Below, piece by piece: positions 4,478-46,667 of a stretch of DNA of 46,667 bases; position 1 is the stretch's first letter; each line of letters starts with the position of its first letter. Source of the DNA: Acetobacter senegalensis (GTDB lineage Bacteria; Pseudomonadota; Alphaproteobacteria; Acetobacterales; Acetobacteraceae); the NCBI RefSeq assembly GCF_001580995.1, contig NZ_LHZU01000119.1, forward strand, positions 1 to 46,667. Reading direction: 5' to 3'. Position numbers and translations under genes: made by a program. The notes under the pieces were generated by a model. The model was not told the origin of the DNA. It was given only the letters and a program-made list of their open reading frames with translations, and made no database searches.

Positions 4478-7180
4478 ATGCGCTGGATCAAAACACTTAA
4501 GATCGGGCTGTTTCTGGCCGCAACAGGCTTTGCAAGCCCCGCCCTGGCGGAAGACGGTGTGGTGCAGGCAACCCTTCCCAACGGATTACGTGTGGTGATT
4601 GTGCGCGATGCACTGGCCCCTATGGTGGCCACGCGGCTGGTCTATCTGGCAGGCTCCACAGCCGCCTCAGCCGATTTCCCCGGCACGGCGCACGCGCTGG
4701 AACACATGATGTTCCGTGGTACGTCCACCCTTAACAATGATCAGTTAAGCCGTATTTTTCAGGCCACCGGCAGCCGTGCCAACGTCTTCACCGCTTACGA
4801 GCAGACGCAATATGTGTTTGATATCGCCCCGGTTGATCTCGGCGTCATGCTGCATATCGAGGCCGACCGGATGCAGAACCTCTCGCTTGATCCAGCCCAA
4901 TGGGCGCGCGAACGCGGGGCTATTGAGCAGGAAGTCTCGCGCGATCGCTCCAGCTCCGTGATGCGGGCAAGGGAGCAGTTTGACGAAGCCTTGTTTGAGG
5001 GCACTCCTTTTGCGTGGAGCGCCCTTGGCACACGCCAGTCTTTTGATGCCACAACACCAGAACGCCTGCGCCAGTTCTATCAGGCATGGTATGCGCCCAA
5101 TAACGCCATCCTGTTTGTTGTGGGGGATGTTCAGCCCAAAGCCACGCTGAAACTGGTGCAGCAGGCTTTCGGCACAATACCCTCCCGCCCCCTTCCGGCG
5201 CGCCCGACAGTTCCCCTCACACAGCCCACCGCCCGCACGCTCACCGCCCCCACGGATGCCGCGGTCGGGCGAATCACCATCGGGTGGCGCGTGCCCGGCC
5301 TGCATCAGTCTGATGCCCCCGCACTGGCCATTCTGGCAGATGCCATCTCAAACAGCCGCAGCAAGCTCGGTGTGCTGGGGCTGGATGGCAAAAGTCTCGG
5401 AACATCATTCTTTTACGCCGGAACAGCCAATAACGCCGCTCTTACAGCCTCCATTTCTTTCCCCCGTGGGCAGGATCCTGCCTCTTATCAGGCGAATCTG
5501 AACGCAGTTCTTGCTGAGTACCGCGCCCACGGTATTCCGGCTGATCTGGTGGAGGCCGCCAAGCGGGCGCGCCTTAAAGGGGCCGAGTTTGAACGCAACA
5601 GCATTGCCGGCCTGACCCACGCCTGGACCATGGCCGTGGCGGAATGGGGCGTCAGCAGCCCGGAGGCCCTTACAAAAGCCTATGCGTCCGTCACGCCAGA
5701 ACAGGTAAACGCGCTTGCGGTTCGCTATCTGGACCCAGATCACGCCATTACCCAGATCTCGCTCCCGCAGGGCAACATTCCTCCCACGCAGGATAAAGGG
5801 TTCGGCGGTGCGGAATCGTTTGGGGATAAACCAGTGGGCGCGGTTCCGCTGCCAGACTGGGCGCAATCCGTGCTGACTATGCCACCCGCGCCGCAATGGC
5901 CTCTGCCGCGCTCCGTTTCCACCCTGCCAAACGGGCTGCGGCTGATCGTCCGACCTTACCACGCGTCCCATACCATTCAGGTCTTCGGGATGGTCCGCAT
6001 CAACTCGGCGCTGGAAGAACCCGCTGGCAAGGATGGTGTTGCCTCCCTCACGTCTCAACTTCTGCTCTACGGCACCCCTGAGCATGATCGGCTGAGTATT
6101 GTAAAACGATCAGATGATATCGGCAGTTCGCTCTGGATTGGTTCTAGGTTCGGGGCCGCGGCCCAGACGCAGGATTTTCCCGCCACTCTGGCCCTGCTTG
6201 CAGACACCCAACTGAATCCCGCTTTCCGTGAGGCCGATCTTGCCACAGTGCGGGAGAAACTGGCGGTTGCCCGGCAAGGCCTGTTGCAAACCCCGAACCA
6301 CATGTTCCAGCGCGCAGCACTTGAACGCCTGCTGCCACCCAATGATCCGCAATTACGGCAGGCAACACCCCAGACCATCCGCAGCGTGAACCGGGATGAT
6401 GTCACGGCATTTTTCCAGAAAGCCTACCGGCCTGATATGACGGTTATTGAAGTGATTGGGGATATCGAACCCGATGCTGCAAAAGCGGCGGTCATGGCCG
6501 CGTTCGGAAACTGGCATGCAAGCGGCCCCAAGCCGGATGTGGTTTTTTCCCCGCTTCCCGATATCCCGACTGTCTCCCTCCAGATGGAGGGAGAAGGCCG
6601 CACACAGGATATGGTTGAATTCCTCCAGCCGGTTGGGCTCCGGCTGGGGCAGCCGGACACAATGGTGTTTTCTCTGGGGAACCAGATCCTGAGCCTCGGT
6701 TTTCCCTCCCGCTTCTATCAGGCGCTGCGGGTTAAGACCGGATATGTCTATGGCGTGCGCAGTGCGACCTCCGTGGATGAAACCCGAGGCACCTTTCAGG
6801 TCTCGTTCGGGGCCGATCCCGCCAAGGTGCCGCTGGCAGAAACCCTGACGCGGTCTTTGCTGAAGGATATGCAGACAACCCCCGTCAGCACCGCAGAACT
6901 GGCGCGGGTCAAAGGGGGCTATCTTCGCACCCAGCCTTTCGGAACAGCTTCACTCAACAGCATTGCCAGTCGCGATCTTTTCCTCATCAGCCACGATCTG
7001 CCTCTTGATCAACCCAATCGTGACATCTCAACCGTGGCCGCCGCCACGCCGGAACAGATCCGCGCCGTGTTTGAGCGGGAGGTTCACCCAGATGCCCTCT
7101 CCACCTTCATTTATGGGCCCAGGCCGCCCGAACCAGCACCCGCTATAGCCGCCGGGCAAACCACACCACACGGCCAATGA
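4478..7180 (+). CDS. M16-family zinc peptidase, two-domain, periplasmic
   Basis: A 900-residue protein with a cleavable signal peptide (residues 1-24, ending ALA). The inverted zinc motif HALEH is at residues 72-76, with the family context GTAHALEHMMFRGT, and a second Glu-rich block follows about 75 residues later (ERGAIEQEVSRD). The N-terminal half resembles an active M16 core. The second half (from about residue 480, STLPNGLRLIVRPY) repeats the fold without HxxEH, as in PqqL/YmxG-type proteins. It probably degrades peptides in the periplasm. The start has a GGGGAGGGG site. Its 3' end overlaps the leftward repressor by 38 bases. Confidence 0.93.
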   Translation: MRWIKTLKIGLFLAATGFASPALAEDGVVQATLPNGLRVVIVRDALAPMVATRLVYLAGSTAASADFPGTAHALEHMMFRGTSTLNNDQLSRIFQATGSRANVFTAYEQTQYVFDIAPVDLGVMLHIEADRMQNLSLDPAQWARERGAIEQEVSRDRSSSVMRAREQFDEALFEGTPFAWSALGTRQSFDATTPERLRQFYQAWYAPNNAILFVVGDVQPKATLKLVQQAFGTIPSRPLPARPTVPLTQPTARTLTAPTDAAVGRITIGWRVPGLHQSDAPALAILADAISNSRSKLGVLGLDGKSLGTSFFYAGTANNAALTASISFPRGQDPASYQANLNAVLAEYRAHGIPADLVEAAKRARLKGAEFERNSIAGLTHAWTMAVAEWGVSSPEALTKAYASVTPEQVNALAVRYLDPDHAITQISLPQGNIPPTQDKGFGGAESFGDKPVGAVPLPDWAQSVLTMPPAPQWPLPRSVSTLPNGLRLIVRPYHASHTIQVFGMVRINSALEEPAGKDGVASLTSQLLLYGTPEHDRLSIVKRSDDIGSSLWIGSRFGAAAQTQDFPATLALLADTQLNPAFREADLATVREKLAVARQGLLQTPNHMFQRAALERLLPPNDPQLRQATPQTIRSVNRDDVTAFFQKAYRPDMTVIEVIGDIEPDAAKAAVMAAFGNWHASGPKPDVVFSPLPDIPTVSLQMEGEGRTQDMVEFLQPVGLRLGQPDTMVFSLGNQILSLGFPSRFYQALRVKTGYVYGVRSATSVDETRGTFQVSFGADPAKVPLAETLTRSLLKDMQTTPVSTAELARVKGGYLRTQPFGTASLNSIASRDLFLISHDLPLDQPNRDISTVAAATPEQIRAVFEREVHPDALSTFIYGPRPPEPAPAIAAGQTTPHGQ

Positions 7181-7856
7181 TCTGCACCATCTCGGCCGGA
7201 ACTTCATAAGGAGAAAAGCGCGGATTTTCAGATTTAATGCGGATCATGGGTTCGGTGGCCTCATGGGCCCGCTCCACCCATTTGCACACCACGCCATCGC
7301 CATCAAACAGCACAAAAATGCCGGGCTCTATAATGGACACCTTGCGGGTATCCACCAGCACCATGTCTCCATTCTTGAGCATCGGCTCCATGGACTGGCC
7401 TTCAACTTCTATCACCCGCAAATCCGCCGGGTGGGCGCGCAGGGTGCCGCGCACAAACTCTTCCTCAAAAAACTTGGGGCGCCCCAGAAGCTGATCTTCC
7501 ACATACCCGCCGCCACCCATGCCCGCACGCAGTGAAATGAACGGCACCGCCACATAACCGGGCGGGTTCAGTTCCACACACACGCTGGGCATATCCGATG
7601 GCGGGGTATAACGGGCGGGCTTATCCTGTTCGGCCACCCCGCGCGCATGGGCAGGAAACAGCAGGTCCCGCGCCGTGCAGCCCAGAATGGCCGCAATCCG
7701 CTCAAGCTTCTCGCCCCCCGGATTGCGGGATTTCCCCTTCAGAATATCGCGCACGTAGGTATCGCCCACGCCAGCATTGCGGGCCAGAGCCTTCTGGGTC
7801 AGGCCCAGCAGCGCCATGCGCCGTTCAAGTTCATCAGCAACAGGGGAGCGTATCAT
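7143..7856 (-). CDS. XRE-HTH/S24 repressor, LexA-like
   Basis: 237 residues from the ATG at 7856. An N-terminal helix-turn-helix spans residues 8-45 (LGLTQKALARNAGVGDTYVR). The C-terminal S24 domain has GQSMEP with Ser155 and VVCKWV with Lys192. The 37-residue spacing equals the catalytic Ser-Lys spacing of LexA. An Ala111-Gly112 pair is a candidate autocleavage site. This is the layout of a CI-type phage repressor that RecA can inactivate. A promoter and an operator-like palindrome lie directly upstream, suggesting autoregulation. No strong Shine-Dalgarno is visible before 7856, and the frame is open to 7940, so the start is not certain. It marks the left edge of the phage genes. Confidence 0.88.
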   Translation of the reverse strand: MIRSPVADELERRMALLGLTQKALARNAGVGDTYVRDILKGKSRNPGGEKLERIAAILGCTARDLLFPAHARGVAEQDKPARYTPPSDMPSVCVELNPPGYVAVPFISLRAGMGGGGYVEDQLLGRPKFFEEEFVRGTLRAHPADLRVIEVEGQSMEPMLKNGDMVLVDTRKVSIIEPGIFVLFDGDGVVCKWVERAHEATEPMIRIKSENPRFSPYEVPAEMVQIIGRVVWFARRL

Positions 7857-7897
7857 AGGGGGAGGTATCCCATAAGAACGAAGCAAGATCAAAAAGG

Positions 7898-7926
7898 GAT
7901 ATATCACACCATTTCTGCTTGACCAA
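7898..7926 (-). promoter_or_regulatory. Putative promoter of the S24 repressor
   Basis: On the minus strand TTGGTC (7921-7926) and TATATC (7898-7903) are separated by 17 bases, fitting a sigma-70 promoter that would start about 35 bases before the repressor ATG. The -35 box overlaps the palindrome at 7920-7939. Confidence 0.55.
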
Positions 7927-7939
7927 GAGGGACTGGTCA
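7920..7939. promoter_or_regulatory. Candidate operator, TGACCA-N8-TGGTCA
   Basis: A perfect inverted repeat with six-base arms and an eight-base spacer in the divergent gap between repressor and early genes. Its position over the repressor -35 box suggests repressor binding. A further TGACCA half-site occurs shortly downstream at about 7986. Confidence 0.55.
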
Positions 7940-8193
7940 CACTAGCGTTCCCCTTAAGCCTCCCACCTCAAGGCCGGGGGCTCCTGACCAGCTTTCATAA
8001 CGGAAAAGCCTCCATGCCTGTTCTTCAGCCTGTGCGTGAAACACCTCTCTATCATATTGATATGTCTTCCATAAATCCGCGTTCTGCTTCAGTGTCATCA
8101 CGACCAATGGCGCAACCGCGCGGCACTGCTTCGTCCACGCACGGCCTCCCCCGTCAACAGGCATCGGCAGCCTCTTCCACCACGGAGGATATG

Positions 8194-8769
8194 ATGCGTC
8201 ACACCCGCTCTCTCATGCCGTCAAGTGGGTGTGATTTATCCCTCTCCGAATCGCCTCATCCCACCGCTGCGGCAGATGTCGCGTGTCAGGCCGCAGCCCG
8301 TCCGGGCACCAGCGTCACCCTGCTTGAGCAAATGGTCGCCCTGCGGCGCGCCGGGCGTTCCCTGCGTCAGATCGGCCGCCACACAGGCCGCTGCATGGAA
8401 AGCGTGCGTCAGGCGCTCATGCGGTACGAACACGCCCGCCTTGCCTCCGCCCCCTCTGCAACAGATGAGGACGAATGGAACGAACCCCTGCGGGATGCCG
8501 AACCCCTTCCTCCCGGCCACCCCATCGCCCTGCGTGGCCTGTGGCGTGGGCTGGAACACTGGCAAACAGATGAACCGCCCCCCACAAACGCCAGCCCCGC
8601 ATCCGGCCACCAGACCGCCATGCGCCACAGAAAGACGCACCACACAGATGCGTGTCCGGGCAATGAGAGCCTGACCCCAACCGGTCACAGCGTGTCCAGA
8701 TGCCCCAACGCCATGCTTCACAACACGCGTGCGCATAACGGCACTTTTCCTGAAAAGGCACAGGCATGA
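8194..8769 (+). CDS. Helix-turn-helix phage early protein
   Basis: About 191 residues from the ATG at 8194, which has GGAGG five bases upstream. The frame is open from 8014, but the extra leader is Ser-rich and lacks a good ribosome site. Residues 42-75 (LLEQMVALRRAGRSLRQIGR and following) look like a helix-turn-helix with the pattern seen in sigma-like or GcrA-type DNA-binding proteins. The C-terminal third is disordered and rich in His, Pro and Thr. It is the first rightward gene after the operator, so a regulator of early phage expression is likely by position. Its TGA overlaps the next ATG (ATGA). Confidence 0.65.
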   Translation: MRHTRSLMPSSGCDLSLSESPHPTAAADVACQAAARPGTSVTLLEQMVALRRAGRSLRQIGRHTGRCMESVRQALMRYEHARLASAPSATDEDEWNEPLRDAEPLPPGHPIALRGLWRGLEHWQTDEPPPTNASPASGHQTAMRHRKTHHTDACPGNESLTPTGHSVSRCPNAMLHNTRAHNGTFPEKAQA

Positions 8770-9575
8770 GCAAGCGTCTCTGGTCCAAATTCTGGTGGCA
8801 GGATTATGAACGAGACCCGGCACTCCGCCTGTGCTCGCTGGCCGCGCAGGGGCTGTGGATGCGCCTGCTGTGCCTGATGCATGAGGGCGAACCCTACGGC
8901 CATCTATGCGTCAATCACCGGCCCCTGCATTCGCGCCAGCTTGCGCTTATGCTGGGTGTGGCAGAACGGCAGATCGCGCGCCTGATGGCAGAACTGCGGG
9001 ACGCCGGGGTGTTCAGCACCACGCCTGAAGGCTGTATCTACAGTCGTCGCCTGTTGCGCGATAAAGCAGTGTCAGACCAAGGGGCTGCATGGGGCCGCAC
9101 GGGCGGTAATCCCAGCCTGAAAGCCGCCAGCCAAACACCTGCATCTTCACCGCCTTCCACACAGCCCGCGGGTGTGGGGGAGGGGTTAAGCCCGCCCCAT
9201 AAACACCAAGAAGCAGAGGCAGAGTCAGAAGCAGACTGTACCCTCACTGCGTTCGGGCCGAACGATGATGTGCGTTTGCATCTTTTTAAACACGGGCTAA
9301 GTTTTTTGCAGAAAGCAACAGGGCGGCCAGAGCGCTCAACCCGTGCCCTTCTCGGGAAATGGCTGAAAATGCTGCATGATGATGCCGCCTGCCTGCTGGC
9401 AGTGCTAGCCGAATGTGCGGCATTCAACCCGGCAGAACCTGTTTCATGGATAGAAGCCAAGGTGCGTGCCCGCGTGGCCGAACTGGCCCAGCCCATGGCT
9501 CATCCCGCTTCTGCCTCACCCCATGCTCAGCGGCTGGCCGCATGGCAGAACGTGCCCGATATGGAAGGCGTGTGA
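8766..9575 (+). CDS. Phage replication-type winged-helix protein
   Basis: 269 residues. The N-terminus (KFWWQDYERDPALRLCSLAA, then GLWMRLLCLMHEGEPYGHL) followed by LMLGVAERQIARLMAELRDAGVF and IYSRRLLRD is the winged-helix layout of replisome-organiser or initiator proteins in alphaproteobacterial phages. A linker at about 110-155 is Pro/Ser/Glu-rich. The C-terminal part (residues 165-250) is helical and may contact helicase or origin partners, which is inference. The ATG overlaps the preceding stop, implying coupled translation. No helicase or primase gene is visible nearby. Confidence 0.68.
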   Translation: MSKRLWSKFWWQDYERDPALRLCSLAAQGLWMRLLCLMHEGEPYGHLCVNHRPLHSRQLALMLGVAERQIARLMAELRDAGVFSTTPEGCIYSRRLLRDKAVSDQGAAWGRTGGNPSLKAASQTPASSPPSTQPAGVGEGLSPPHKHQEAEAESEADCTLTAFGPNDDVRLHLFKHGLSFLQKATGRPERSTRALLGKWLKMLHDDAACLLAVLAECAAFNPAEPVSWIEAKVRARVAELAQPMAHPASASPHAQRLAAWQNVPDMEGV

Positions 9576-9577
9576 TC

Positions 9578-10309
9578 ATGCTGCATTTCTTCGCCGCACA
9601 GTCGGAAAACGCCGGAGCCTGCTTGCCAAATGCCAGCACCCCAGCGGCTACGTCGCACGCTGGAACACGCAATGCGCCGTGCGCTGCCAGAGCGCCATGG
9701 ATGGATCAGTCAGAAAACGCAGAAAATACTTTGTTACAAGCATCTTTTTCCGGAACACCCCACACATCTCCGGCACTCCAACCCACCCGCTATACGCCTG
9801 CCACACCTGCCCTGCGTGCCGTATTTGCGGCACGGGCTGCTGGCGTACCGCTCACAGTGCGCGATGTTTCGCCGGACATGATGGAGGCCATACGGCAGCA
9901 ATGGGGGCTCGTGCAGCACGCGCTCCAGCCTGTTACAGAACTGCATGTTGCTGCGTGGCTGAAAAAACTCAGTCAGCTTGTCACCAACCCGCCGGGGGCT
10001 GAAACCGCCGCCAGCCAATGCCGCGCCATTTTTGAGGTGTGTGGTGATATCCCGTCAGGCGCATGGGGGCGGGACGCCCGCCTTGCATGGGCACGGCAAC
10101 CACCCCGCAACGGCTACCCCACCGGCGCCCGCTGGCCCAGCCCCAACGAACTCCGCACCCTGCTGCTGCCCTTTGCTGAAACCATCAGGCGGGATGCAGA
10201 AGGATGCCGCGCTCTGCTCCGCCTGCACTCCCAGAGTGACGCCACACTCCAAAGCACCATATCCCAGACCACAGCACCCCAAACCCACGCCACGCCGCCC
10301 ATCCATTAA
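9578..10309 (+). CDS. Phage hypothetical protein, 243 aa
   Basis: The ATG at 9578 follows the previous TGA by two bases, with GGAAGG upstream. The frame is open to 9413 but that part overlaps the previous gene. Residues 1-75 are low in complexity. The core from about residue 85 (VFAARAAGVPLTVRDVSPDM to WPSPNELRTLLLPFAETI) looks folded and mixed alpha/beta. I do not recognise a named domain. Its place after the replication gene suggests a role in early DNA metabolism, without direct evidence. The last 25 residues are Thr/Gln/Pro-rich. Confidence 0.6.
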   Translation: MLHFFAAQSENAGACLPNASTPAATSHAGTRNAPCAARAPWMDQSENAENTLLQASFSGTPHTSPALQPTRYTPATPALRAVFAARAAGVPLTVRDVSPDMMEAIRQQWGLVQHALQPVTELHVAAWLKKLSQLVTNPPGAETAASQCRAIFEVCGDIPSGAWGRDARLAWARQPPRNGYPTGARWPSPNELRTLLLPFAETIRRDAEGCRALLRLHSQSDATLQSTISQTTAPQTHATPPIH

Positions 10310-10710: not shown

Positions 10711-11301
10711 ATGACACTCAGGAAAAACCGCACCACTGCCTCTTCCCTGCGGTCCGCCACACCACCGTCTGTCATGGAAGTGGCACCCACACCAGAACGG
10801 CTGACCCATTCTGAATTTGTGGGCACGCACCCCATGCGTGTGCGCCGTACCGTGCAGGCGCTTCTGAACGCGGGGGATATCACCCAATCCGCCGCCGATT
10901 CCGCTGAACGCTGGTATCAGGATTATGTGTTTGGTTATTGTGATTATAAGGAGTTTTCACAGGACCACCGCCCAAGCACTCTTACAAAACATGATGCAGT
11001 TTCCTGGCAGATGGTGCGGGGCAAAGCTGTTGCGCGTATTACAAGCGTGCGGGAAGCGCTTGGCCTGTGCGCCCACCAACGCTTACGCATGATGCTGGTA
11101 GATGAACTCTCTTTCCGCGCCATGGGGGCAGCCCTGTTTCCGCAACTCTCCGCCAGTTCCGCCCAACGCAAGATTGCCGCCCAGTGCGCCCTGTTGCTTG
11201 AGCAACTGGAAGCGTTTGAAGAAAACGCCCGCAAAGCCGCAAAACAAGCCCGCATGGCGCGCAAGGCAGCCGCGCCTGCCACCACTTTGCCCTCGCCGTA
11301 G
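10711..11301 (+). CDS. Phage hypothetical protein, possible late regulator
   Basis: 196 residues, with a weak GGATTTTTC leader before the ATG. After a Thr/Ser-rich start, residues 37-175 look helical: MRVRRTVQALLNAGDITQSA, AERWYQDYVFGYCDYKEF, then SVREALGLCAHQRLRMMLVD and a coiled C-terminal end (QLEAFEENARKAAKQARMAR). The helical pattern and its place between replication and packaging genes recall late-gene regulators of phages, but I see no diagnostic motif. The basic Ala/Lys tail could bind nucleic acid. Function is inference only. Confidence 0.6.
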   Translation: MTLRKNRTTASSLRSATPPSVMEVAPTPERLTHSEFVGTHPMRVRRTVQALLNAGDITQSAADSAERWYQDYVFGYCDYKEFSQDHRPSTLTKHDAVSWQMVRGKAVARITSVREALGLCAHQRLRMMLVDELSFRAMGAALFPQLSASSAQRKIAAQCALLLEQLEAFEENARKAAKQARMARKAAAPATTLPSP

Positions 11302-11356
11302 CACAGCGCAAGCGCTCGTCTGGCCCAAGGCTTTTCATGTCGTGAAAGGGGGACAT

Positions 11357-11836
11357 ATGTCTCGCTTCGCAGTGCTTTCTGCTCTGGCGTTCTTATGCGC
11401 AGCACAGGCGCACGCAGCAGCAACATCATGCCCGGGTACCAACACGATTGAGATGAACCAGTGCGAGGGCGATGCACTGGCGCAGGACGAAGCAACGCAT
11501 CAGAAATATGCCAAGGCCGCACTTGCGTTTCTTCAGAAACAGATCACCGATACAAAAGATGATGACACAGTAAAGGTTCTGAAAGAGAGCCAGAAAGCCT
11601 TCCAGCACTCAGAAACCGCATGGAAGGCTTATCGGGACGCTGAATGCGGCGCCGTATTTACAAACTGGCAGCAGGGTACACTCCGGGTCATGATGCAACT
11701 GGGGTGTGAAAGACGCCTGACCCGCCAGCGCACATACACCATATGGCAGAACTGGCTGACGTTTCAGGACAGCACCCCACCCGTGTTGCCCAGCCCAGAG
11801 ACCGACCTTCCGGGTGATAATACTCACAACAGATGA
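11357..11836 (+). CDS. Secreted LprI-like (DUF1311) protein
   Basis: 159 residues from the ATG at 11357, preceded by GGGGGAC. The signal peptide (residues 1-20, LSALAFLCAAQAHA) is followed by the DUF1311/LprI-type core: NTIEMNQCEGDALAQDEATH, later SETAWKAYRDAECGAVF and LGCERRLTRQRTYTIW. Four cysteines fit two periplasmic disulfides. Family members include inhibitors of lysozyme. In a phage setting it could protect the cell wall or delay lysis, but this is inference. The frame extends to 11102, where it only overlaps the previous gene. Confidence 0.8.
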   Translation: MSRFAVLSALAFLCAAQAHAAATSCPGTNTIEMNQCEGDALAQDEATHQKYAKAALAFLQKQITDTKDDDTVKVLKESQKAFQHSETAWKAYRDAECGAVFTNWQQGTLRVMMQLGCERRLTRQRTYTIWQNWLTFQDSTPPVLPSPETDLPGDNTHNR

Positions 11837-12018: not shown

Positions 12019-12201
12019 ATGCCCTGGACACCTGATGACGCCCAACACCACACGCACAAGGCCACAACGGAAATGCTCCAGTCCCTATGGGCAAAGGTTG
12101 CCAATGAGTGTCTGGAGCGCACGGGGGATGAAGGCCGTGCAGTGCGGGAGGCCAACGCTGTTGTCGCCCGCACCGCTGCCCGCCACCCGGAGGATGATTA
12201 A
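12019..12201 (+). CDS. Small MPWT-type phage protein, 60 aa
   Basis: Begins [11 protein letters not shown] and carries [20 protein letters not shown] followed by REANAVV. This pattern (MPWT, then W..VAN, then DE..A.R.AN.VV) belongs to a small conserved family seen in phages and bacteria, of unknown function. GGAGA lies upstream of the ATG. Its last bases overlap the stop of the leftward dehydrogenase by three bases. Confidence 0.72.
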
Positions 12202-14716: not shown

Positions 14717-14722
14717 CTGTTC

Positions 14723-29730: not shown

Positions 29731-29757
29731 TATAAATTCGCGCTATTACATTTTACA

Positions 29758-33043: not shown

Positions 33044-33045
33044 TC

Positions 33046-33483: not shown

Positions 33484-33503
33484 GCGGCAGAAAGGAAGAG
33501 CCC

Positions 33504-38149: not shown

Positions 38150-38802
38150 TGCCTCTTACTGCCAGCACATATCCCGTTCTTAACCGGGCGGATGCCGCAG
38201 CGTCTGACTTCAATGCACTGAACCGGGTTGTGGCACGGCTATTGTCCGCGCGGCGCACAGTGGTTGTGGTGCAGGTCAAGGCTGTTTCCGGTAGCGGGCT
38301 GAACCCCGTTGGTTTTGTGGATGTCCAGCCCATGGTGCACCAGCAGAACGCGGCAGGCGCGGTTACGCCGCATGGGGTGCTGTATCAGGTGCCCTATTTT
38401 CGGTTGCAGGGTGGCAGCCGCGCCGTGATTGTGGACCCCGCCGTGGGGGATATCGGGCTGGCCCTTGTGGCGGACCGCGATATCTTCAATGTCAAAACGG
38501 CCCGAACCCCGGCGGCTCCAGGTTCCTTCCGCCAGCAGAATATGGCGGATGCACTCTATCTGGGCGGGTTTCTGAATGGCGCACCACAGACATATGTGTG
38601 GCTGCATGATCAGGGCGTCACTGTAAAAACCGCAGGAACGGTGGATATTACAGCCCAGAGCCTGACCCTGAATGGGGACGCCACAATCAACGGGGCGCTG
38701 CATGTTTCAAAGGATGTCACGGCTTCAGGCATTTCCCTCACGCAGCATATTCATCCCGGTGTGCAGCCGGGTAGTGGCACAACGGGAACCCCACAAAGCT
38801 GA
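38149..38802 (+). CDS. Baseplate central spike, Gp138-like
   Basis: 217 residues. OB-like domain (VVVVQVKAVSGSGLNPVGFV, DVQPMVHQQN, YFRLQGGSRAVIVDPAVGDI, GLALVADRD) followed by a beta-helical shaft (VTVKTAGTVDITAQSLTLNG). His200 and His202 (QHIHPG) near the end resemble the iron-binding tip histidines of spike proteins. It pierces the target cell envelope. A strong hairpin starts two bases after its stop. Confidence 0.86.
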   Translation: MPLTASTYPVLNRADAAASDFNALNRVVARLLSARRTVVVVQVKAVSGSGLNPVGFVDVQPMVHQQNAAGAVTPHGVLYQVPYFRLQGGSRAVIVDPAVGDIGLALVADRDIFNVKTARTPAAPGSFRQQNMADALYLGGFLNGAPQTYVWLHDQGVTVKTAGTVDITAQSLTLNGDATINGALHVSKDVTASGISLTQHIHPGVQPGSGTTGTPQS

Positions 38803-38926: not shown

Positions 38927-41044
38927 TCAGACTGCATGCACTTTTGCCTCACGCTGCCAGAAGCGCAGGGCGCGGCAGGTTTTGACAAATTCCGGAACCG
39001 AGGAGGGTTTTTCCAGCGTAATAACCCCTTCATCCAGCGCATCATCCGTCAGGCCCGCCTTTTTCAGCAGCGGAGCAGCTTCAGGCACATGCGCAATGAA
39101 TTTTGCATGCGCATAGGCATCCGTCACAAAATCCTTGGCGTCTGCGTCGTTCGCAAGCTGTTTGGCTCCGTCTTCAGAAAGCAGAAGCACAACCGCATCA
39201 TACAACACAGATGGGCCGCCCGGCACCCGCTGCCCTGCCGGAACATGGCGACCGCTTGATGTCTTGATCCCGCCAATCTGCGGTGCCACCAGTTCCAGAT
39301 CAACGCCTTCAGCCTTGGCGGTTTTTTCCAACGCTTCCAGAATGGCTTCATCCGCACCGTTGGTAATCAGCACACCAATTTTGCGGCCTTCAAAGGTTTT
39401 TGGACCATTTTTCAGAATGCTCAGGGCAGGGGACTCTGGCAGGTCAATCACCTTGCTGGCAGGTGGTGCGGCGTCTGGCAGTTTTTCCAGCCCCAACCCG
39501 TCAGCCACGGCCTGTGCCAGTCCCTTGTCAATATTCAACAGGTGAGAGACCACGCGGGCACGAATAGCCGGTGTTTCCACCTTGCTGAGTTCAAAGGTAA
39601 TGGCCTGCTGAATATGCGTCTGCTCCACCTCGGTCTGGCTTTTGTAGAACTGCCGCGCCTGACTGTAATGGTCCGCAAACTTTTCTGACCGCACACGCTC
39701 TTTCCGGCCCTCTACGTCCTGCGGATAAGACGTAAAGCCTTTCTGCGGGTTTTCACGCGGGCCACCGGCTTCTCCGCCCCAGGAGTTGGGCTCATAATTC
39801 ACCCGCCCTTTAGGGTTATGCATCGCGCCGTGGCCATCCTGCTGAAAATGATGGAACGGGCATTTAGGCGCATTGATGGGAATATGCGTAAAGTTCGGCC
39901 CACCCAGCCGCTTCAACTGCGTATCCAGATAGGAGAAATTGCGGCCCTGAAGCAGCGGATCATTGGTAAAATCAATCCCCGGCACCACGTTCTGGGTGCA
40001 GAAGGCCACCTGCTCGGTTTCCGCAAAGAAATTATCCACCATGCGGTCCAGCACCAGCCGGCCAACAGGCTGCACGGGCACCAGTTCTTCCGGAATCAGC
40101 TTTGTTGCATCCAGAATGTCAAAATCGAACGTGTCAGCAAATTCATCGTCAAAAAGCTGCACACCCAGTTCCCATTCCGGGTAGTTGCCTGCCTGAATGG
40201 CGTTCCACAAATCACGACGGTGAAAATCAGGGTCAGCACCGTTTATTTTGACGGCCTCGTTCCACACAACAGATTGCAGCCCCTGTTTGGGCTTCCAGTG
40301 GAACTTGGCAAAGGTGGATTTGCCATCCGCCGTGACAAAACGGAACGTGTGAACGGCAAAGCCTTCCATAAAGCGGAAGGACCGCGGAATTCCCCGGTCA
40401 GACATCACCCACATGATCATGTTCATGCTCTCAGGGGTGAGGGAAATGAAGTCCCAGAAATTATCATGCGCGGATTGTGCCTGCGGAAAAGCGCGGTCCG
40501 GCTCTTCCTTCACGGCATGCACCATGTCCGGAAATTTGATGGCGTCCTGAATGAAGAATACGGGAATGTTGTTGCCAACAAGATCCCAGTTGCCTTCCTT
40601 GGTGTACAGCTTGACCGCAAAGCCACGCGCATCACGCGCAAGGTCAAAAGATCCCTTGCTGCCCGCCACGGTGGAAAACCGCACAAACGCGGGCACACGC
40701 TCGCCCACACGCTGCAACACATCCGCCCGTGTGATGTCAGACAGGGAATGGGTCAGTTCAAAAAAACCATGCGCGCCATAGCCACGGGCATGCACAACCC
40801 GTTCTGGAATACGCTCATGGTCAAAATGGAAAATCTTTTCTCTGAAATGAAAATCTTCCAGAAGGCTTGGGCCGCGTGCGCCTGCTTTCAGTGTGTTCTG
40901 ATCATCCGCTACAGGCACGCCCTGCTGGGTGGTCAGGGTTGGCACGTCACCGTGGGCGGTCTGGTGTGTTTCGCCACCTGCGCCGCGCTGTACCTTTTCT
41001 TCGCCCAATGTTACGGGTTTGCGGTCTGTATCCGTCGTGCTCAT
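38927..41044 (-). CDS. katE: Large-subunit monofunctional catalase
   Basis: 705 residues, the length of HPII-type (clade 2) catalases. Catalytic His85 ([12 protein letters not shown]), an Asn in [11 protein letters not shown] (158/159) and proximal heme Tyr372 ([13 protein letters not shown]) are present, with the core [20 protein letters not shown]. The C-terminal part (about 540-690, [20 protein letters not shown]) is the DJ-1/PfpI-like domain of large catalases. It dismutates hydrogen peroxide, which suits the oxidative metabolism of acetic acid bacteria. It is leftward, with no phage gene on that strand near it. Confidence 0.96.
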
Positions 41045-41350
41045 ATGCCTGCGCCTTCCCTTTAAAATCCTGAAACATGCGGAACCCCACGCAGAACACG
41101 GCCCGATGAAGCGGAGTATTCCCCCTCCATCAGTCGTTTTCTGCCGGGTGCAGTCTTCTCCTCTGCGTCGCTCCGGGGTGCCGGGGTGTGATGTGCTGAA
41201 ATGGGCCCGTCAGCCGTGCGTTATGTCGGGCCTCTAACGCGTGTGTCCTCGTCAGAGTTTCCTCTCTCCCGGCAAAGTCAGCCATGCCCCAGGCGCAAGG
41301 CTAAGGCGGCGCATGGCCTTTCTTCCCTCAGAAAACAAAGAGTTTATGTC
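41045..41350. other. Divergent gap: catalase and gp25 promoters
   Basis: About 306 bases between the katE start and the baseplate wedge gene. Both promoters should lie here, but I see no clear box pairs. No gene is evident. Confidence 0.4.
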
Positions 41351-41704
41351 ATGCAAACATTGCTGCTTGACTGCGCAACGTGGGACCTGGCGGTTAATGC
41401 CGCCGGAAACATAGCCGTGGCCTCCGCCCCCTATGCCGTGGCGCAGAATGTGGCCTGTGCAGTCCGGGTGTTCCTGGGCGAGTGCTGGTACAACACCAGC
41501 CTTGGGCTGCCCTATCTCAGCAATATTCTGGGCCGCACCCAGTCCGCCGCTCTCTTCCGGGCAGATGTGGAGCAGACAGCCCAGAGCGTGCAGGGCGTGG
41601 CCCGCGCGGTGTGTGTGCTGACAGCCATCAGCCCCCAGCGCCGTCTCTCCGGCGTTATCCAGCTTATTCTTGCAGACGGGAGCCAGACTGTTGTCAGCCT
41701 CTGA
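41351..41704 (+). CDS. Baseplate wedge protein, gp25/gpW-like
   Basis: 117 residues from the ATG at 41351; the frame is open to 41201 without support. Typical features: WDLAVNAAGNIAVASAPYAV, AQNVACAVRVFLGECWYNTS, GLPYLSNILG and RADVEQTAQSVQGV. The sheath-initiating gp25/gpW family has the same order (QNVxxAxRxFLGExWYDxxxGxPY). It lies next to gpJ, as in other contractile phages, but is cut off from the rest of the baseplate by katE. Confidence 0.87.
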   Translation: MQTLLLDCATWDLAVNAAGNIAVASAPYAVAQNVACAVRVFLGECWYNTSLGLPYLSNILGRTQSAALFRADVEQTAQSVQGVARAVCVLTAISPQRRLSGVIQLILADGSQTVVSL

Positions 41705-42950
41705 AACCGCACAAACCACCAGCACAGGCCAGACCACATCTGGCGGCACAACATCCGTCCCGGCTCCAGTGCTGGATGCCACAGGCTTCATCATGCCGGA
41801 GGAGCCGGACATGCTGGCTGGCGTGCTGGCCGATCTGAACGCAGCCTTCGGCAATACCCTCAATACGGATCTTTCCACCCCGCAAGGGCAACTGGCCATG
41901 TCGCTCACCGCCATTCTGGGGGATGCGTATGATCAGTTTCTGGCACTTGCCAACGGGGTAGATCCGGCCCGTGCCTCCGGCCGGATGCAGGATGCCATCG
42001 GCCGCCTTTATTTCATGTCCCGTCTGCCTGCCACCGCCACGGTTGTCACCTGCCTGTGTACGGGGGTTGCCGGTACTGTTATTCCGCAGGGCGCGCTGGT
42101 GCAGGATGCGTCAGGCAACAGTTACGCGGCAGATGCCGCCATCACGCTGGATGCCACAGGCACCGGCAGCGGCACGTTTTCCTGCACGCAGGCGGGCGAG
42201 GTTGTTTGCCCGGCGCAAAGCGTTGGCATCAGCCAGTCTCTGGCCGGGTGGGCAACTGTTACCAACCCAGTTGCCGGGGTAACGGGCAGCGCTGTAGAAA
42301 GCCGCACTGCGTTTGAAGAAAGACGCCGCGTATCGGTCGCCGCCAACGCCATCGGTCCGCTGGATGCCATATCCGCCGCTGTGCAAGCCGTTCCGGGCGT
42401 AACTGATGCGTTTGTCACGGATAACAGCACGGCTTCGGCCACCACGATGGGCGGTGTTACGCTTGCGCCCTATAGCCTGTATGTCTGTGCCAACGGCGGC
42501 GCCGATCAGGCCATTGCGCAGGCTATCCTGCGTAAAAAGCCACCAGGGTGCGCTTATACCGGCAGCACGACCGTTACCGTGACAGACCCCAACAGCGCTT
42601 ATAATACAGCGCCAAGCTATACCGTCAGTTTTCAGCGTGCCACCCCCACACCGCTTTTTGTAAAAGTGACAATGGTGGCGTCTTCCACCGTGCCCTCTAC
42701 GGCCACAACAGCCGTGCAGGCCGCCATACAGGCCGCATTTTCAGGGGATGACGGGGGCAGCCGCGCGCGTATTGGGGCCACGCTGTATGCCAGCCGCTTT
42801 TATGCGAGTATCGCAGCACTGGGCACGTGGGCGCAGATTGCGGATATCACGCTTGGTATGACCGCCACGCCAACCGGGTTCAGCGCGACTTTCGGCATCA
42901 GTCAGGTGCCTACGCTTGATCCGGCAAATATCAGTGTGGTGTTTGCCTGA
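41691..42950 (+). CDS. Baseplate J-like protein
   Basis: About 419 residues from a TTG at 41691 with GGAG upstream. The frame is open to a TTG at 41670. After a Ser/Thr-rich leader: GFIMPEEPDMLAGVLADLNA, FGNTLNTDLSTPQGQLAMSL, DPARASGRMQDAIGRLYFMS, RLPATATVV, and the ESRTAFEERRRVSVAANAIG, AVQAVPGVTDAFVTDN blocks typical of gpJ. It links the wedge into the baseplate ring. It overlaps gp25. Confidence 0.9.
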   Translation: MSASETAQTTSTGQTTSGGTTSVPAPVLDATGFIMPEEPDMLAGVLADLNAAFGNTLNTDLSTPQGQLAMSLTAILGDAYDQFLALANGVDPARASGRMQDAIGRLYFMSRLPATATVVTCLCTGVAGTVIPQGALVQDASGNSYAADAAITLDATGTGSGTFSCTQAGEVVCPAQSVGISQSLAGWATVTNPVAGVTGSAVESRTAFEERRRVSVAANAIGPLDAISAAVQAVPGVTDAFVTDNSTASATTMGGVTLAPYSLYVCANGGADQAIAQAILRKKPPGCAYTGSTTVTVTDPNSAYNTAPSYTVSFQRATPTPLFVKVTMVASSTVPSTATTAVQAAIQAAFSGDDGGSRARIGATLYASRFYASIAALGTWAQIADITLGMTATPTGFSATFGISQVPTLDPANISVVFA

Positions 42951-43519
42951 TGCAGAATGTGCAGAAAACCGTTCTGTCCCAATATGCATGTTCTCCTACC
43001 CTGAATGCCCTGATTGCGGCCTGGAACCAGGCGTTTGATCCCGCTACGCTGATCGAGACGTGGTACCAGCAGATATGGAACCTGGAAACCGCCCAAGGGT
43101 ACGGTCTGGATGTCTGGGGTCGGATTGTAGGCGTGCAGCGCATTCTGAGCATAACATCAGACACATTCTGCGGGTTTGAAGAAGCGGAAGATCTGACAGA
43201 GGACAGTTTCAACAGTGCTCCGTGGTATTCCGGCACTGTCTCAAGCGGCAATTATCGCCTGTCTGATGATGGGTTTCGCCAACTGATCTACGCCAAGGCC
43301 ATGGCCAATATTACAGATGGCTCCATTACCAGCCTGAACGCCATTCTCATGACACTGTTCGCAGGGCAGGGGGATGCCTGGGTGTCTGATCATGGCGGCA
43401 TGAGCATGACTTACACGTTCGGTTTTGTGCCATCTGCGGTGCAGATTTCCATTATCCAGAATTCCGGTGTCCTGCCTCGCCCTGCGGGTGTGCGGGTAAC
43501 CTACGCCATTAAAGGCTGA
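42950..43519 (+). CDS. Baseplate protein gpI-like, DUF2612
   Basis: 189 residues. ATLIETWYQQIWNLETAQGY, GLDVWGRIVGVQRIL, FRQLIYAKAMANITDGSITS and SVLPRPAGVRVTY-like end (SGVLPRPAGVRVTYAIKG) match DUF2612, the gpI equivalent. It sits between gpJ and the fibre gene and shares one base with gpJ. It anchors the tail fibre to the baseplate. Confidence 0.88.
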   Translation: MQNVQKTVLSQYACSPTLNALIAAWNQAFDPATLIETWYQQIWNLETAQGYGLDVWGRIVGVQRILSITSDTFCGFEEAEDLTEDSFNSAPWYSGTVSSGNYRLSDDGFRQLIYAKAMANITDGSITSLNAILMTLFAGQGDAWVSDHGGMSMTYTFGFVPSAVQISIIQNSGVLPRPAGVRVTYAIKG

Positions 43520-43521: not shown

Positions 43522-44592
43522 ATGAAACAATCTGATTTTCCTGAACGGTTTGCAAAGCCCATTGCGGATTCCGCCAGTGCAGGCAACCTTGCCACCATTC
43601 CGGCCACACAGTCCACTGTGGGCGATGGCACGGCGTCTGTCTCCCTTGGCTTTCCGCCAGAAACCTTTATCGGGCGGTCCGCTGGTGGGGTGCCCCCACG
43701 CGGGCAGGACATGAACGGTTTTCTGCATCGCCTCTCTGCCGTGTTGCAGGCTTATCAGGCGGGCATGATCGGCCAGTATGATGCCACTTTTGCTTCTGGC
43801 ATCGGCGGCTATCCTGCCGGAGCCGTGGTGGCAGGTGCAACGCCGGGCACGTTCTGGGTGTCCACCGCAGAAAACAACATGACCATCCCTGGTGCAAATG
43901 GGGCGGCGTGGCAAAATCTTTTTGCAAATTATCTGCCTCTTGCCGGGGGCAAGCTGCAAGGCTCCCTTGCCATAGGCAATGCCTATTCCTTTGACGGTGC
44001 GGGCGGCTACAGCATGCTGTATCGTCTTTCATCCGTTGCGTCAGATGGTGTGCTGGATGTGTATTCCAACGTGGGGGGCACCCGCGTCAATGTGGCGCGC
44101 ATCAGCGCGGATGGGTCCATTGCCATATTTGGAGGCGGCCATTTTTCAGAAAATGGGCAACAGGTAGCAACCCAAAGCTGGGCCAACGCACAATTTGCCA
44201 CCCCCTCCTGGGTCAGTTCACAATTCGCAACATCGGCGTGGGTTTCTGGCCAGTTTGCTACCTCATCATGGGTAAACGGCACCTTTGAACGTGCTGGCGT
44301 ATGCCTGACACTCTCAAACTACAACAATGATTTTGCCACAAATGATGACCGGATCATCAACCTGCCATACGGGAACATGATGCAATGCTTCAGTGTGGAT
44401 AACGTTTCTTCCGGGCGAATCACTTTTCCGGTGGCGTTTTCCGCAGCGCCCCAATCCATTCTGGTGCAGGCGGTAACGGGCGGTGTGATCTCGCACTATC
44501 ATTGCGTGTGGGAACCAGATGCCGCTGGCTTCACCCTGAATCTATATGGCTCCTACAACGCTATTTATGTTGAGGCAAAAGGGAAGAAATAA
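43522..44592 (+). CDS. Tail fibre protein
   Basis: 356 residues after an AAAGG site. N-terminal baseplate-attachment part (FPPETFIGRSAGGVPPRGQD, MNGFLHRLSAVLQAYQAG), a shaft (YLPLAGGKLQGSLAIG), and at residues 220-250 four exact 10-residue repeats of the form W(V/A)xxQFATxx, with Trp at 220, 230, 240 and 250. The C-terminal domain (VCLTLSNYNNDFATNDDRII, FPVAFSAAPQSILVQAVTGG) resembles receptor-binding fibre tips. It recognises the host. Confidence 0.85.
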   Translation: MKQSDFPERFAKPIADSASAGNLATIPATQSTVGDGTASVSLGFPPETFIGRSAGGVPPRGQDMNGFLHRLSAVLQAYQAGMIGQYDATFASGIGGYPAGAVVAGATPGTFWVSTAENNMTIPGANGAAWQNLFANYLPLAGGKLQGSLAIGNAYSFDGAGGYSMLYRLSSVASDGVLDVYSNVGGTRVNVARISADGSIAIFGGGHFSENGQQVATQSWANAQFATPSWVSSQFATSAWVSGQFATSSWVNGTFERAGVCLTLSNYNNDFATNDDRIINLPYGNMMQCFSVDNVSSGRITFPVAFSAAPQSILVQAVTGGVISHYHCVWEPDAAGFTLNLYGSYNAIYVEAKGKK

Positions 44593-44594
44593 CC

Positions 44595-45203
44595 ATGTCA
44601 GATAAGGGGATTTCCAGTTCTTCTCTCTCCGTTGCCGCGCAGGTGCAGGCAGCCTACCCCGCACGCTATTACGCCGGGTATGATGCCACTGCCACACAGC
44701 CCGCCCCCGTTACCGCATGGTATGACACATGGAGCATGAGCAGTGTGGAGAGCCTTCCGCCCGCAAGCCAGCTTGTGCCCATCAGCGCGGCAGACTGGGC
44801 GAACACCACCGGCTTCCGTCTGCCAGCCGGAAAAGCGGTGCAGAATGGCGGCATTGTGGATTACACTGCTCCGCCGCTCCCTTTGGCCACTCAGGCTGCC
44901 AATGCCCTGCAACAGGCAGCCACCACCAGTTGGGCAGCCTATGGCATGTATGGCGAGACGCCGCCCGCCGCCTGGCAGACCTATCTTGCCAGCCTGCGTG
45001 TACTGGCCAGCGGGGCAGACACCACCAGCACGCAGCTTCCTGCACAGCCCGCACTGAGCGCCGCCGCCATGCCCGCACCGGGGGTAAGCGTCAGGGCTGT
45101 TCAGAAAACACACTCTGAAGGAAACGCTGTTTCGTGTCTTGAACAGGCTCCAGTACCGCACCTGACGCAGCCAATACCGACCACAGCAGGGCAGCACGCA
45201 TGA
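44595..45203 (+). CDS. Tail fibre assembly-like protein
   Basis: 202 residues. AYPARYYAGYDATATQPAPV, TAWYDTWSMSSVESLPPAS, LVPISAADWANTTGFRLPAG and ATTSWAAYGMYGETPPAAWQ resemble fibre-assembly chaperones that stand after fibre genes. The last 60 residues are Pro/Thr/Ala-rich. Family assignment is from order and pattern, so moderate. Confidence 0.62.
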   Translation: MSDKGISSSSLSVAAQVQAAYPARYYAGYDATATQPAPVTAWYDTWSMSSVESLPPASQLVPISAADWANTTGFRLPAGKAVQNGGIVDYTAPPLPLATQAANALQQAATTSWAAYGMYGETPPAAWQTYLASLRVLASGADTTSTQLPAQPALSAAAMPAPGVSVRAVQKTHSEGNAVSCLEQAPVPHLTQPIPTTAGQHA

Positions 45204-45727
45204 TTGCTCCCTTGCCTTCCACCGGCTGGCAGCCCGCACCGGCCCGCACCCTGCCTGTGGCTGTGCCTGCCAGCCTGCGCCTGCGTGGACTGCTGGGGCA
45301 AACCGTTGCTCTGGCATGGGCCCCAAAAGCGAGTGCCGACACGCTGGATTTTACGCTGGATGCCACTGAATGGCTGCGCGGCACGGGGGATTACCTCGCC
45401 AGTGTTGCCGCCAGCGTGCCTACGGCCTCCGGGCAGGAGACGGATATGCGTGTGCTGTGGGCCACTTTGGTCAATGGCATGGCGTGCCTGTTTCTCAGCG
45501 GCGGTGCTCCCGGCACGGTGCAAACGGTTCTGGTCAGTGTTACCACACAGCAGGGCCGTAGTCTCAGTCAGCCGGTTTCCATAGCCATTCACTCCACCAG
45601 CCCGGCCACACCGGCCGCCACAGCCCCCAGCCTGCCAGATGGCACGGCGGTGCCTCCAAATGCCCTTGCACTTTCCAATACGGTCATTCTGACAACGGAA
45701 AGCGGGTGCCCCTATCTTCTAGCCTGA
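45200..45727 (+). CDS. Phage fibre-tail adaptor protein
   Basis: 175 residues. LDFTLDATEWLRGTGDYLAS, ACLFLSGGAPGTVQTVLVSV and TTQQGRSLSQPVSIAI fit the pattern of fibre-tail adaptor proteins (dTLdxTlDxxxWL, LSGGxpGtxytvxvxvtTxxGR). The C-terminus is Pro/Thr/Ser-rich. It overlaps the previous gene by four bases. It would connect a fibre to the baseplate edge. Confidence 0.72.
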   Translation: MIAPLPSTGWQPAPARTLPVAVPASLRLRGLLGQTVALAWAPKASADTLDFTLDATEWLRGTGDYLASVAASVPTASGQETDMRVLWATLVNGMACLFLSGGAPGTVQTVLVSVTTQQGRSLSQPVSIAIHSTSPATPAATAPSLPDGTAVPPNALALSNTVILTTESGCPYLLA

Positions 45728-45742
45728 AGGACACAACCCCCA

Positions 45743-46303
45743 ATGTCCGGGTCTTCCACCACGGCGGCCACCCTAAGTGGCACGCCGCTTTCCGCGTTGC
45801 CGGTGCAGGCCCAGCCTGCGGCAACTGATCTTGTTTTTGGTATTTTCAACGGGCAGGGGCAGTTTGTGCCCCAGGGCAAGATCTGGTCCGGCGCGGTTGA
45901 TAAAACAGGCGATACACTCTCCGGTTTGCTGGCCTGTCCAATTGCCCCATCTGCCCCTGCGCATCTGGCCAACAAAGCCTATGTGGATGCCATGAGCGGG
46001 CAGGTGCAGGGGGCAGTCTCCACCCTTGTGACACAGGCGCAGGATGCCGCAACACAGGCCGGGCAGGCGGCCTCTGGCGCGGCGGGTGCTGCCGCCACCA
46101 TTGTAGATGCGCAAAAAGGCACCCCCAACGGGCTTGCGGCACTTTCCGCATCCGGCAACCTGCTTCTGGGTGGGCTGGAATGTCTGGGCGTGCGGAATGG
46201 CCATGTGCTGATGACGCTTGAACTCCCCACCACAGACCCCGGCGTAGCGGGCGCATGGTGGAACAATGGCGGCTATATCTGCATCTCTCAGGAAAACACA
46301 TGA
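45743..46303 (+). CDS. Tail fibre-like protein, short
   Basis: 186 residues; AAGGA lies upstream. Begins SGSSTTAATLSGTPLSALPV, followed by LANKAYVDAMSGQVQGAVST (the NKAYVD linker is common in tail fibres), a coiled Ala/Gly-rich stretch, and the end LPTTDPGVAGAWWNNGGYIC with ISQ, which is typical of short phage fibre ends. It may be a side fibre or fibre cap. ATGA overlap with the next gene. Confidence 0.76.
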   Translation: MSGSSTTAATLSGTPLSALPVQAQPAATDLVFGIFNGQGQFVPQGKIWSGAVDKTGDTLSGLLACPIAPSAPAHLANKAYVDAMSGQVQGAVSTLVTQAQDAATQAGQAASGAAGAAATIVDAQKGTPNGLAALSASGNLLLGGLECLGVRNGHVLMTLELPTTDPGVAGAWWNNGGYICISQENT

Positions 46304-46667
46304 GCATGAAATCTGTTCTTAAAGCCCGTATTCTGCTCAGTGCCTGTTCCGGGCTGCTTTTGGTGGCCTCTGTTCATACAGTTGCCGCCACGCGCCCCAA
46401 CCATCTGCTACCCCAATACCAGCAGAGCGTTCCCGCAGTGCGGGCAGCCCTCCATGGTCCGTTGCCGTCCGTGCAAACCGCGCCAGTATCGTCGCCAGAA
46501 GGACCCGGCACCTCCATCACTGGCACACCTGTAAGCCAGTCACGCAAGGCGATGCTGAAACATGCTGTGGAAACAGCGCCCGGCGTGAAAAAGAGCTTGC
46601 AGAAACGGCTTCTTTCCGCACCGATCGCCGCCACAGCCGCCACAGCCGCCACAGCCGCCACAGCCGC
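46300..46667 (+). CDS. Secreted protein with AAT repeats, partial
   Basis: Starts at 46300 (ATGA overlap) and runs off the window. The N-terminus (MSMKSVLKARILLSACSGLL, LVASVHTVAA) is a signal peptide or anchor. About 80 residues of a charged, Ser/Pro-rich segment follow, then Ala-Ala-Thr repeats from the GCCGCCACA array. A lysis or wall-acting role is possible from position at the end of the fibre genes, but no catalytic domain is seen in the part present. Confidence 0.6.
   Translation, partial: MSMKSVLKARILLSACSGLLLVASVHTVAATRPNHLLPQYQQSVPAVRAALHGPLPSVQTAPVSSPEGPGTSITGTPVSQSRKAMLKHAVETAPGVKKSLQKRLLSAPIAATAATAATAATA
46627..46667. repeat. GCCGCCACA nonamer tandem repeat
   Basis: Four perfect nine-base copies and a partial one, cut by the window edge. 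Each unit encodes Ala-Ala-Thr, so copy changes keep frame. It lies inside the partial secreted-protein gene. Confidence 0.92.

Follow-up and report, generated by a model that had tools for sequence, protein, structure and literature searches.

A probably domesticated contractile-tailed prophage with nested bacterial genes in Acetobacter

Acetobacter species are the vinegar bacteria. One entire contig of Acetobacter senegalensis (NZ_LHZU01000119.1; 46,667 bases, hereafter the window) carries a contractile-phage gene cluster interlaced with bacterial genes, which we call the element. We think it likely that this locus is a domesticated contractile-tailed prophage, going back to the ancestor of a large Acetobacter clade, inherited mainly with its host and still coding for a particle. 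The domestication is well supported, because no integrase is matched, the chromosomal place is fixed, the phage tree broadly follows that of the host and selection maintains the genes. The element probably forms a phage-like particle resembling a gene transfer agent (GTA) or the PBSX-like particles of Bacillus. The same locus is already known from Acetobacter orleanensis as phage phiAO1 (PMC8566455); added here are its genus-wide spread and its constraint.

Family searches of the window proteins bear out the canonically ordered contractile-phage cluster that an earlier note on this DNA had described on the plus strand (7.1-46.7 kb), as well as three blocks of bacterial genes inside it, all on the minus strand (12198-13589, 17098-23713, and 38927-41044). 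The cluster opens with an S24/CI-type repressor on the minus strand, and its last fibre gene is truncated at the contig end. The layout is repeated in a second species (G047, 61-kb contig), with a portal 98% identical to that of the window; there the element measures about 42 kb and its right end lies about 2.2 kb past the point corresponding to the end of the window contig. G003 and G026 have a simpler version, on contigs of 2.8-2.9 Mb. A misassembly or assembly chimera is ruled out by the recurrence of the layout in these independent species. The family scans covered window proteins from open reading frames (ORFs) of about 90 amino acids upwards; tube, tape measure and gpI were named by position and weaker matches, and the match of the terminase small subunit (TerS) is weak. 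The features of the element are, in order:

7143..7940, minus: S24/CI-type repressor (phrog_4) with the predicted Ser/Lys autocleavage pair, by family search and alignment
8014..8769, plus: helix-turn-helix early gene (weak HTH_28 match)
8766..9575, plus: replication-initiator O-like gene (weak, phrog_345, E 0.018)
9413..10309, plus: early ORF without assigned family
10711..11301, plus: early gene phrog_16492, present in element carriers and related prophages
11102..11836, plus: ORF with LprI-like domain, its assignment to bacterial block 1 uncertain
12198..13589, minus: glucose/sorbosone dehydrogenase (bacterial block 1)
14309..15553, plus: two ORFs, the second with a weak TerS match in its G047 copy (phrog_641, E 0.0042)
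15471..17021, plus: terminase large subunit, TerL (Terminase_6N/6C)
17098..17814, minus: gene without assigned function (bacterial block 2), matched only in G047 among the compared loci
18408..19697, minus: TrhO/UPF0176 rhodanese sulfurtransferase (bacterial block 2)
20266..21453, minus: glutathionylspermidine-synthase-like ATP-grasp protein (bacterial block 2)
21827..22387, minus: Dabb stress-responsive barrel protein (bacterial block 2)
22730..23713, minus: alpha/beta hydrolase (bacterial block 2)
23920..25638, plus: portal (Phage_portal_3, phrog_146)
25762..28775, plus: head protease, minor head protein, major capsid protein (phrog_264)
28878..31889, plus: head-completion, neck and tail terminator genes
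31886..33962, plus: tail sheath, virion protein in tube position, tail assembly chaperone
34183..35709, plus: tape measure without tail lysozyme domain (position and weak N-terminal match)
35743..38802, plus: Dit-like protein, small virion protein, baseplate hub, spike with Apex motif
38927..41044, minus: large-subunit catalase with long C-terminal domain, HPII/KatE type (bacterial block 3)
41201..43519, plus: baseplate wedge gpW, gpJ, gene in gpI position (phrog_587)
43522..46667, plus: tail fibre and fibre-adaptor genes, the last cut by the contig end

The comparison across the family that the earlier note had proposed places the element within the genus. In 15 of 49 Acetobacter genomes the portal is present in this locus at 67-100% identity, and three more hold the element in part: G042 as fragments at contig ends, G004 as a partial element without portal or capsid match, and G027 (C1:525096-531270, locus L104) as a decayed copy in which a portal remnant is joined to the sheath and the hub-to-gpI region is deleted, while trhO is intact. 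The capsid is 82-100% identical in 13 genomes and present in two pieces in G031; G005, G042, and G004, where the locus lies at or near contig ends, gave no capsid match. The next-best capsids in Acetobacter (75-76% and 63-64%) belong to separate prophages, in 200 genomes of the family no capsid from outside Acetobacter exceeds 45%, and plasmids hold no close relative (best 47.8%). Among 24 IMG/VR loci with the capsid, 19 represent this element (83-100%) and five are relatives at 46%. The S24 repressor occurs in 18 of the 49 genomes, namely in 17 with a whole, partial or decayed element and in a prophage of G013. The locus thus offers a natural series from simple (G046) over crowded (A. orleanensis) and decayed (G027) to absent.

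The place of the element in the chromosome recurs. The right flank has the order F6, NhaP-like antiporter, TonB receptor, kinase-like gene, and PnuC-like gene, as far as the contigs reach, and is found in members of all three carrier clades; the left flank repeatedly shows, in varying form, LysE and Hint genes and a D-amino-acid-oxidase-like gene (LysE and Hint are family matches, whereas we named the other flank genes from their sequences ourselves). In G003 the left flank and the early module stand together, separated from the late genes by 1.8 Mb on a 2.86-Mb contig, or by about 1.0 Mb the other way if the contig is circular, and the same repeated genes, probably insertion sequences, lie at both breaks. 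The common right flank in three clades and the two separated loci in G003 mark the element as endogenised.

Trees and substitution rates point in the same direction. In an rpoB tree of 30 of the 49 genomes (the remaining 19 are not in it), the carriers fall into three clades with supports of 86, 100, and 100, and the same clades are recovered in a tree of up to 15 concatenated phage proteins. For the 17 taxa common to both trees there are 14 splits, of which 8 are shared, whereas 2000 label shuffles gave 0-3, and host and phage distances correlate with r 0.85 over 14 taxa, a value reached in none of 10,000 permutations. Inheritance of the element is accordingly mainly vertical, with exchange inside the genus. 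The ratio of nonsynonymous to synonymous substitution rates (dN/dS), computed over six genome pairs, lies between 0 and 0.31 for head, sheath, tube, and baseplate genes (capsid 0.015-0.066; TerL 0.026-0.129; portal 0.069-0.169; the head protease highest among the head genes with up to 0.31), and gpJ gives 0.061-0.103. The flanking host genes range from 0.009 to 0.266 in the four pairs where they are comparable; selection constrains the structural genes to about the same degree. The tape measure departs from this pattern (0.28-0.64 in five pairs). For the last fibre gene, truncated in the window, one pair yields 0.62 over 122 residues and two further pairs 0.14-0.15.

Functions on which a temperate phage relies are missing from the element as far as the searches reach. 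We searched 22 element pieces, taken from 17 genomes and phiAO1, at a threshold of E 0.05. The integrases of three related prophages (one a 153-amino-acid fragment) have no match in them, and the Pfam family Phage_integrase has none inside elements among the matches listed (E to about 2.5e-13); the search did not extend to serine integrases. The IMG/VR stretches that were fetched likewise match neither these integrases nor the putative lysis proteins of the prophages. The window proteins scanned match no integrase, lysis or endolysin family, in agreement with the earlier note, which had seen no integrase or lysis gene; small or unrelated lysis genes could escape such a scan. By our own sequence reading, the G003 group holds a resolvase-like gene.

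Related, uninterrupted prophages of the genus (G026 C1:379 kb; G027 C1:2.15 Mb; G000 C107; G013 C1:808 kb; G048 C1:1.99 Mb) have the order and families of the element from portal to fibres and part of its early genes. Unlike the element, all five have an integrase match (that of G027 in two pieces), four have putative lysis genes, the one tested has a tape measure with Phage_lysozyme2, and none carries any of the three bacterial blocks; their capsids, 44-76% identical to that of the window, place them in a separate lineage. One of them lies in the genome of the window itself (G000:C107:13129-43180; L029, L027, L028), as a second, uninterrupted relative with an integrase, a portal at 55% and a capsid at 64% identity, and is cut by the contig end after the tube gene. 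Behind the fibres of the G026 prophage stand four proteins that form the putative lysis group, and these have no match in the 22 element pieces. They show weak XhlA and Rz-like matches only, or belong to a family of unknown function, and some have homologues in three other related prophages; the absent group was therefore dropped as strong evidence of domestication, as the re-check found no firm lysis family.

The Phage_lysozyme2 part of the G026 tape measure finds no counterpart in the 22 element pieces, and none of the 11 element tape measures scanned matches a lysozyme family. Twelve measured element tape measures have 332-534 amino acids, against 664 and 698 in prophages. Short N- and C-terminal parts are common to near relatives (window 34183-35709; L060:16086-17633), the N-terminus differing in the G003 group, while the middle is of low complexity, poor in acidic residues and almost unconserved between species, with 30-50% Ser/Thr/Pro/Arg against 20-24% in prophages; its frame is still open.

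The repressor also separates the carriers. Its DNA-binding part is nearly invariant, G003 group included. At the predicted autocleavage positions, 10 of 15 aligned sequences keep the Ser/Lys pair, and the five of the G003 group (G003, G026, G027, G029, and G032) have Ala and Arg. We take these positions to be the catalytic pair, and a nearby Ala-Gly to be the cleavage site, as in other S24 proteins.

The bacterial genes nested in the element differ in age and distribution. The gene trhO stands between TerL and portal in all 15 carriers and in the phiAO1 record. It is present in 45 of the 49 genomes, in one copy each (in two pieces in two of them), and therefore the trhO nested in the phage belongs to the cell itself. 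Six element-free neighbourhoods were looked at: trhO lies beside F31 in four (G013, G045, G016, and G009) and within about 0.2 kb of F6 in two (G012 and G048), without phage genes. Since trhO adjoins F31 or F6 in these element-free genomes, the G003-type carriers that keep F31 have phage DNA on either side of the gene. Neither F31 nor F6 stands within 1.5 kb of trhO in 15 genomes of other genera. Two histories can be considered for trhO, which may or may not be ordinary phage cargo: it may have entered a phage that subsequently disappeared from around it, or pieces of phage may have settled to its left and right; the tree slightly favours the former.

The other nested genes are clade-specific. 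Three groups, tropicalis/indonesiensis, orientalis, and malorum/orleanensis, have the catalase within the element (one member of the last, G011, gave no catalase match), and the G003 group has it elsewhere in the genome. Because nothing separates spike from gpW in G046, G005, and the G003 group, the catalase is either a later insertion or was lost in some lineages. G046 has trhO alone between TerL and portal, and neither dehydrogenase nor catalase. Dehydrogenase, catalase, superoxide dismutase, peroxiredoxin, and glutathionylspermidine-synthase-like genes vary by clade, and glutaredoxin-2-like, SIR2-like, acyltransferase, and radical-SAM genes are further clade-specific members of the set, several of these names being our own reading. 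Five of the nested genes act on oxidants, thiols or sulfur, or six with TrhO, which may reflect their function or else the lifestyle of the host. In a single species, a gene with SIR2-like and repeat domains stands between spike and catalase (G017 C56, about 274.8-276.7 kb, L071) and may, as we read the sequence, serve phage defence.

The closest of 505 matching phage records is phiAO1 (LC644971), with a capsid at 90% identity, the other 504 remaining below 60%. Best segments against the window are 75% for TerL, 78% for portal, 80% for sheath, 89% for TrhO, and 87% for catalase. The record has the order and strands of the window, i.e., dehydrogenase, TerS/TerL, sulfurtransferase, portal to spike, catalase, and gpW to fibres. 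It differs in block 2, which holds a peroxiredoxin and a superoxide dismutase in place of the glutathionylspermidine-synthase-like, Dabb, and hydrolase genes, and in lacking the repressor and early module; it ends in two flank genes. Treatment of A. orleanensis NBRC 3170 with mitomycin C is reported to yield tailed particles with a head of 43.1 nm and a tail of 46.6 nm (n = 3), and the locus was recovered from DNase-treated fractions (PMC8566455). The authors found no integrase, obtained the PHAST verdict "incomplete" and predicted a degenerate prophage, and the sequence was deposited as a complete phage genome (LC644971; PMC8566455). In the accessible part of that paper, phiAO1 is described as the degenerate prophage of one strain, and neither presence throughout the genus nor constraint nor coverage by host reads is mentioned. 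A survey of Acetobacter prophages (PMC9379143) mentions phiAO1 once, and the terms "gene transfer agent" and "catalase" are absent from its main text as accessible to us. Our literature search found no paper on a domesticated or GTA-like locus in Acetobacter.

The tail of RcGTA is non-contractile. Those of the Bartonella and Brachyspira GTAs are non-contractile as well (PMC9662315), whereas the element encodes a sheath. Vertical inheritance, endogenised loci, and a small particle are shared with RcGTA and other recognised GTAs; the RcGTA head measures 38 nm and its tail 49 nm (PMC9662315), against the 43.1 and 46.6 nm of phiAO1. Three of the six properties listed for GTAs in the part of that proposal available to us (PMC9662315) are found in the element, namely caudovirion-like proteins, endogenisation, and mostly vertical inheritance. 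The first is judged by sequence similarity, the particle images being those of phiAO1 and not of the window strain. The other three properties on that list are particles filled mostly with random host DNA, delivery of this DNA to other cells, and a genome that does not fit completely into the particle (PMC9662315). With the PBSX-like phages the element shares a conserved locus, a sheath gene, the order of early and late cassettes, and a variable tape measure (PMC8347963), and mitomycin induction is common to them and phiAO1 only. In Bacillus pumilus, a PBSX-like particle is induced by mitomycin, contains random host DNA and is lethal to relatives; its locus has a lysis module, tape measures carry a transglycosylase domain, and the accessible part of the report mentions no nested host genes of the kind seen here (PMC8347963).

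Several observations weigh against a domesticated and mainly vertically inherited particle locus. Ten element-free species are sister to the G003 clade in the rpoB tree, which needs a loss or extra gains. Support in the rpoB tree is just 14-59 for four of the eight shared splits; six splits differ, and the conflict inside the malorum/orleanensis clade is supported in both trees. Between the window and G047 the synonymous divergence (dS) is 0.06-0.16 from TerL to the chaperone and 0.48-1.44 from Dit to the first fibre, with rpoB at 0.108; it is uneven along the locus, so parts were exchanged within the genus and inheritance was not purely vertical. The portal of G024 has one stop codon, the reading frames of G031 are broken (but so is its rpoB), and the copy in G027 has decayed. 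Loss of lysis genes is no more than a lead, as the lysis role of the prophage proteins is guessed. A missing tail lysozyme would hinder injection, which counts against a classical GTA and against DNA delivery. The phiAX1 and phiKM1 records (PMC8566455) also begin or end in host-looking genes, and the ends of the phiAO1 record were consequently dropped as proof of host-DNA packaging. In the accessible part of its description, phiAX1 (LC644973, L178), which both begins and ends in this way, is called myovirus-like, and its gene names suggest a podovirus. Heads of 44.8 and 47.4 nm were measured for records of 50.7 and 52.0 kb (PMC8566455), and the 43-nm head (n = 3) was dropped as proof of a capacity too small for a locus of about 42 kb.

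An active temperate phage carrying genes for host fitness (morons), as the phiAO1 record implies, would account for the presence of the locus in DNase-treated fractions after induction and for its deposition as a complete genome (PMC8566455), for the CI-like repressor being kept, and for segments moving between species. We consider it unlikely, as no integrase is matched here and none was found by the phiAO1 authors (PMC8566455), the place is fixed, the tree is broadly host-like, the phiAO1 record lacks the early module and runs into flanking genes, and early module and late genes are 1.8 Mb apart in G003. The phage with captured cargo, which the earlier note had offered beside a domesticated particle, thus fits less well: the integrase search, the distance correlation, and the split comparison disfavour a mobile element. 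Chance retention of a decaying prophage with bacterial insertions, the note's further alternative, describes G027 in this set, with its portal and tail deletions, and finds support in the portal stop of G024, the split O-like gene of G003 and the eroded middle of the tape measure. For carriers at large it is improbable, given the low dN/dS in six pairs and matches that span genes in one piece in most carriers across deep Acetobacter clades. The note had further named uninterrupted copies in close relatives, together with a lack of particles, as the outcome that would speak against it; uninterrupted relatives do exist, but as a separate lineage, and particles are reported from A. orleanensis (PMC8566455). 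The domesticated particle gains support from the fixed place, the broadly host-like phylogeny, dN/dS well below 1, and the lack of an integrase match.

What the particle of such a domesticated locus would do is less certain, and we give about an even chance that it packages host DNA. A PBSX-like killing particle, with host DNA in its head, a contractile tail, and bacteriocin activity but no useful gene transfer, is a possibility of minor weight: the sheath gene, the CI-like repressor, and the mitomycin-induced particles reported for phiAO1 (PMC8566455) agree with it, and B. pumilus offers a precedent that is induced, carries random host DNA and kills relatives (PMC8347963). The B. pumilus locus has a lysis module and a tape measure transglycosylase (PMC8347963), whereas no lysis family or lysozyme domain was found here. 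A headless tailocin is at odds with the constraint on terminase and capsid. Similarly tentative is the idea of a new, independently exapted contractile-tailed GTA, present in about one-third of the sampled Acetobacter genomes, with host redox genes nested in it and with one clade uncoupled from SOS autocleavage and under other host control.

For the domesticated particle locus the following course can be proposed. Integrase and tail lysozyme would have been lost, and lysis genes too as far as visible, while head, packaging, and contractile tail parts were retained under purifying selection. Bacterial genes would have come to lie at the borders of transcription units, trhO before the carrier clades split and dehydrogenase, redox, and catalase genes later, clade by clade. 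The S24 repressor would keep the locus silent until DNA damage leads to its autocleavage in lineages with the Ser/Lys pair; the G003 group would have to use another signal. The late operons would then be expressed around the minus-strand host genes, and TerS/TerL would fill the head with DNA to give a short-tailed particle. The particle might carry its own locus or, like GTAs and PBSX-like particles, random pieces of the chromosome, and outside the cell it might serve transfer or killing.

If this holds, a particle common to deep Acetobacter clades would provide a knock-out-ready test of DNA movement versus killing of rivals, and a contractile-tailed case would join the formally recognised GTAs. 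The interlacing with host genes also means that prophage callers miss part of such a domesticated phage: the 19 matching IMG/VR stretches all begin past TerL and TrhO, with the portal, the protease or the final block 2 genes.

The remaining features of the window are minor. Rfam and tRNA scans of it gave no matches, and its G+C content (0.55-0.63) is even between phage and bacterial parts. The genes at 1521-7180 are flank and lie outside the element; among them, a Hint-domain gene (2334-4181, minus strand) clusters loosely with many flank genes of carriers, which are possibly repeated surface proteins.

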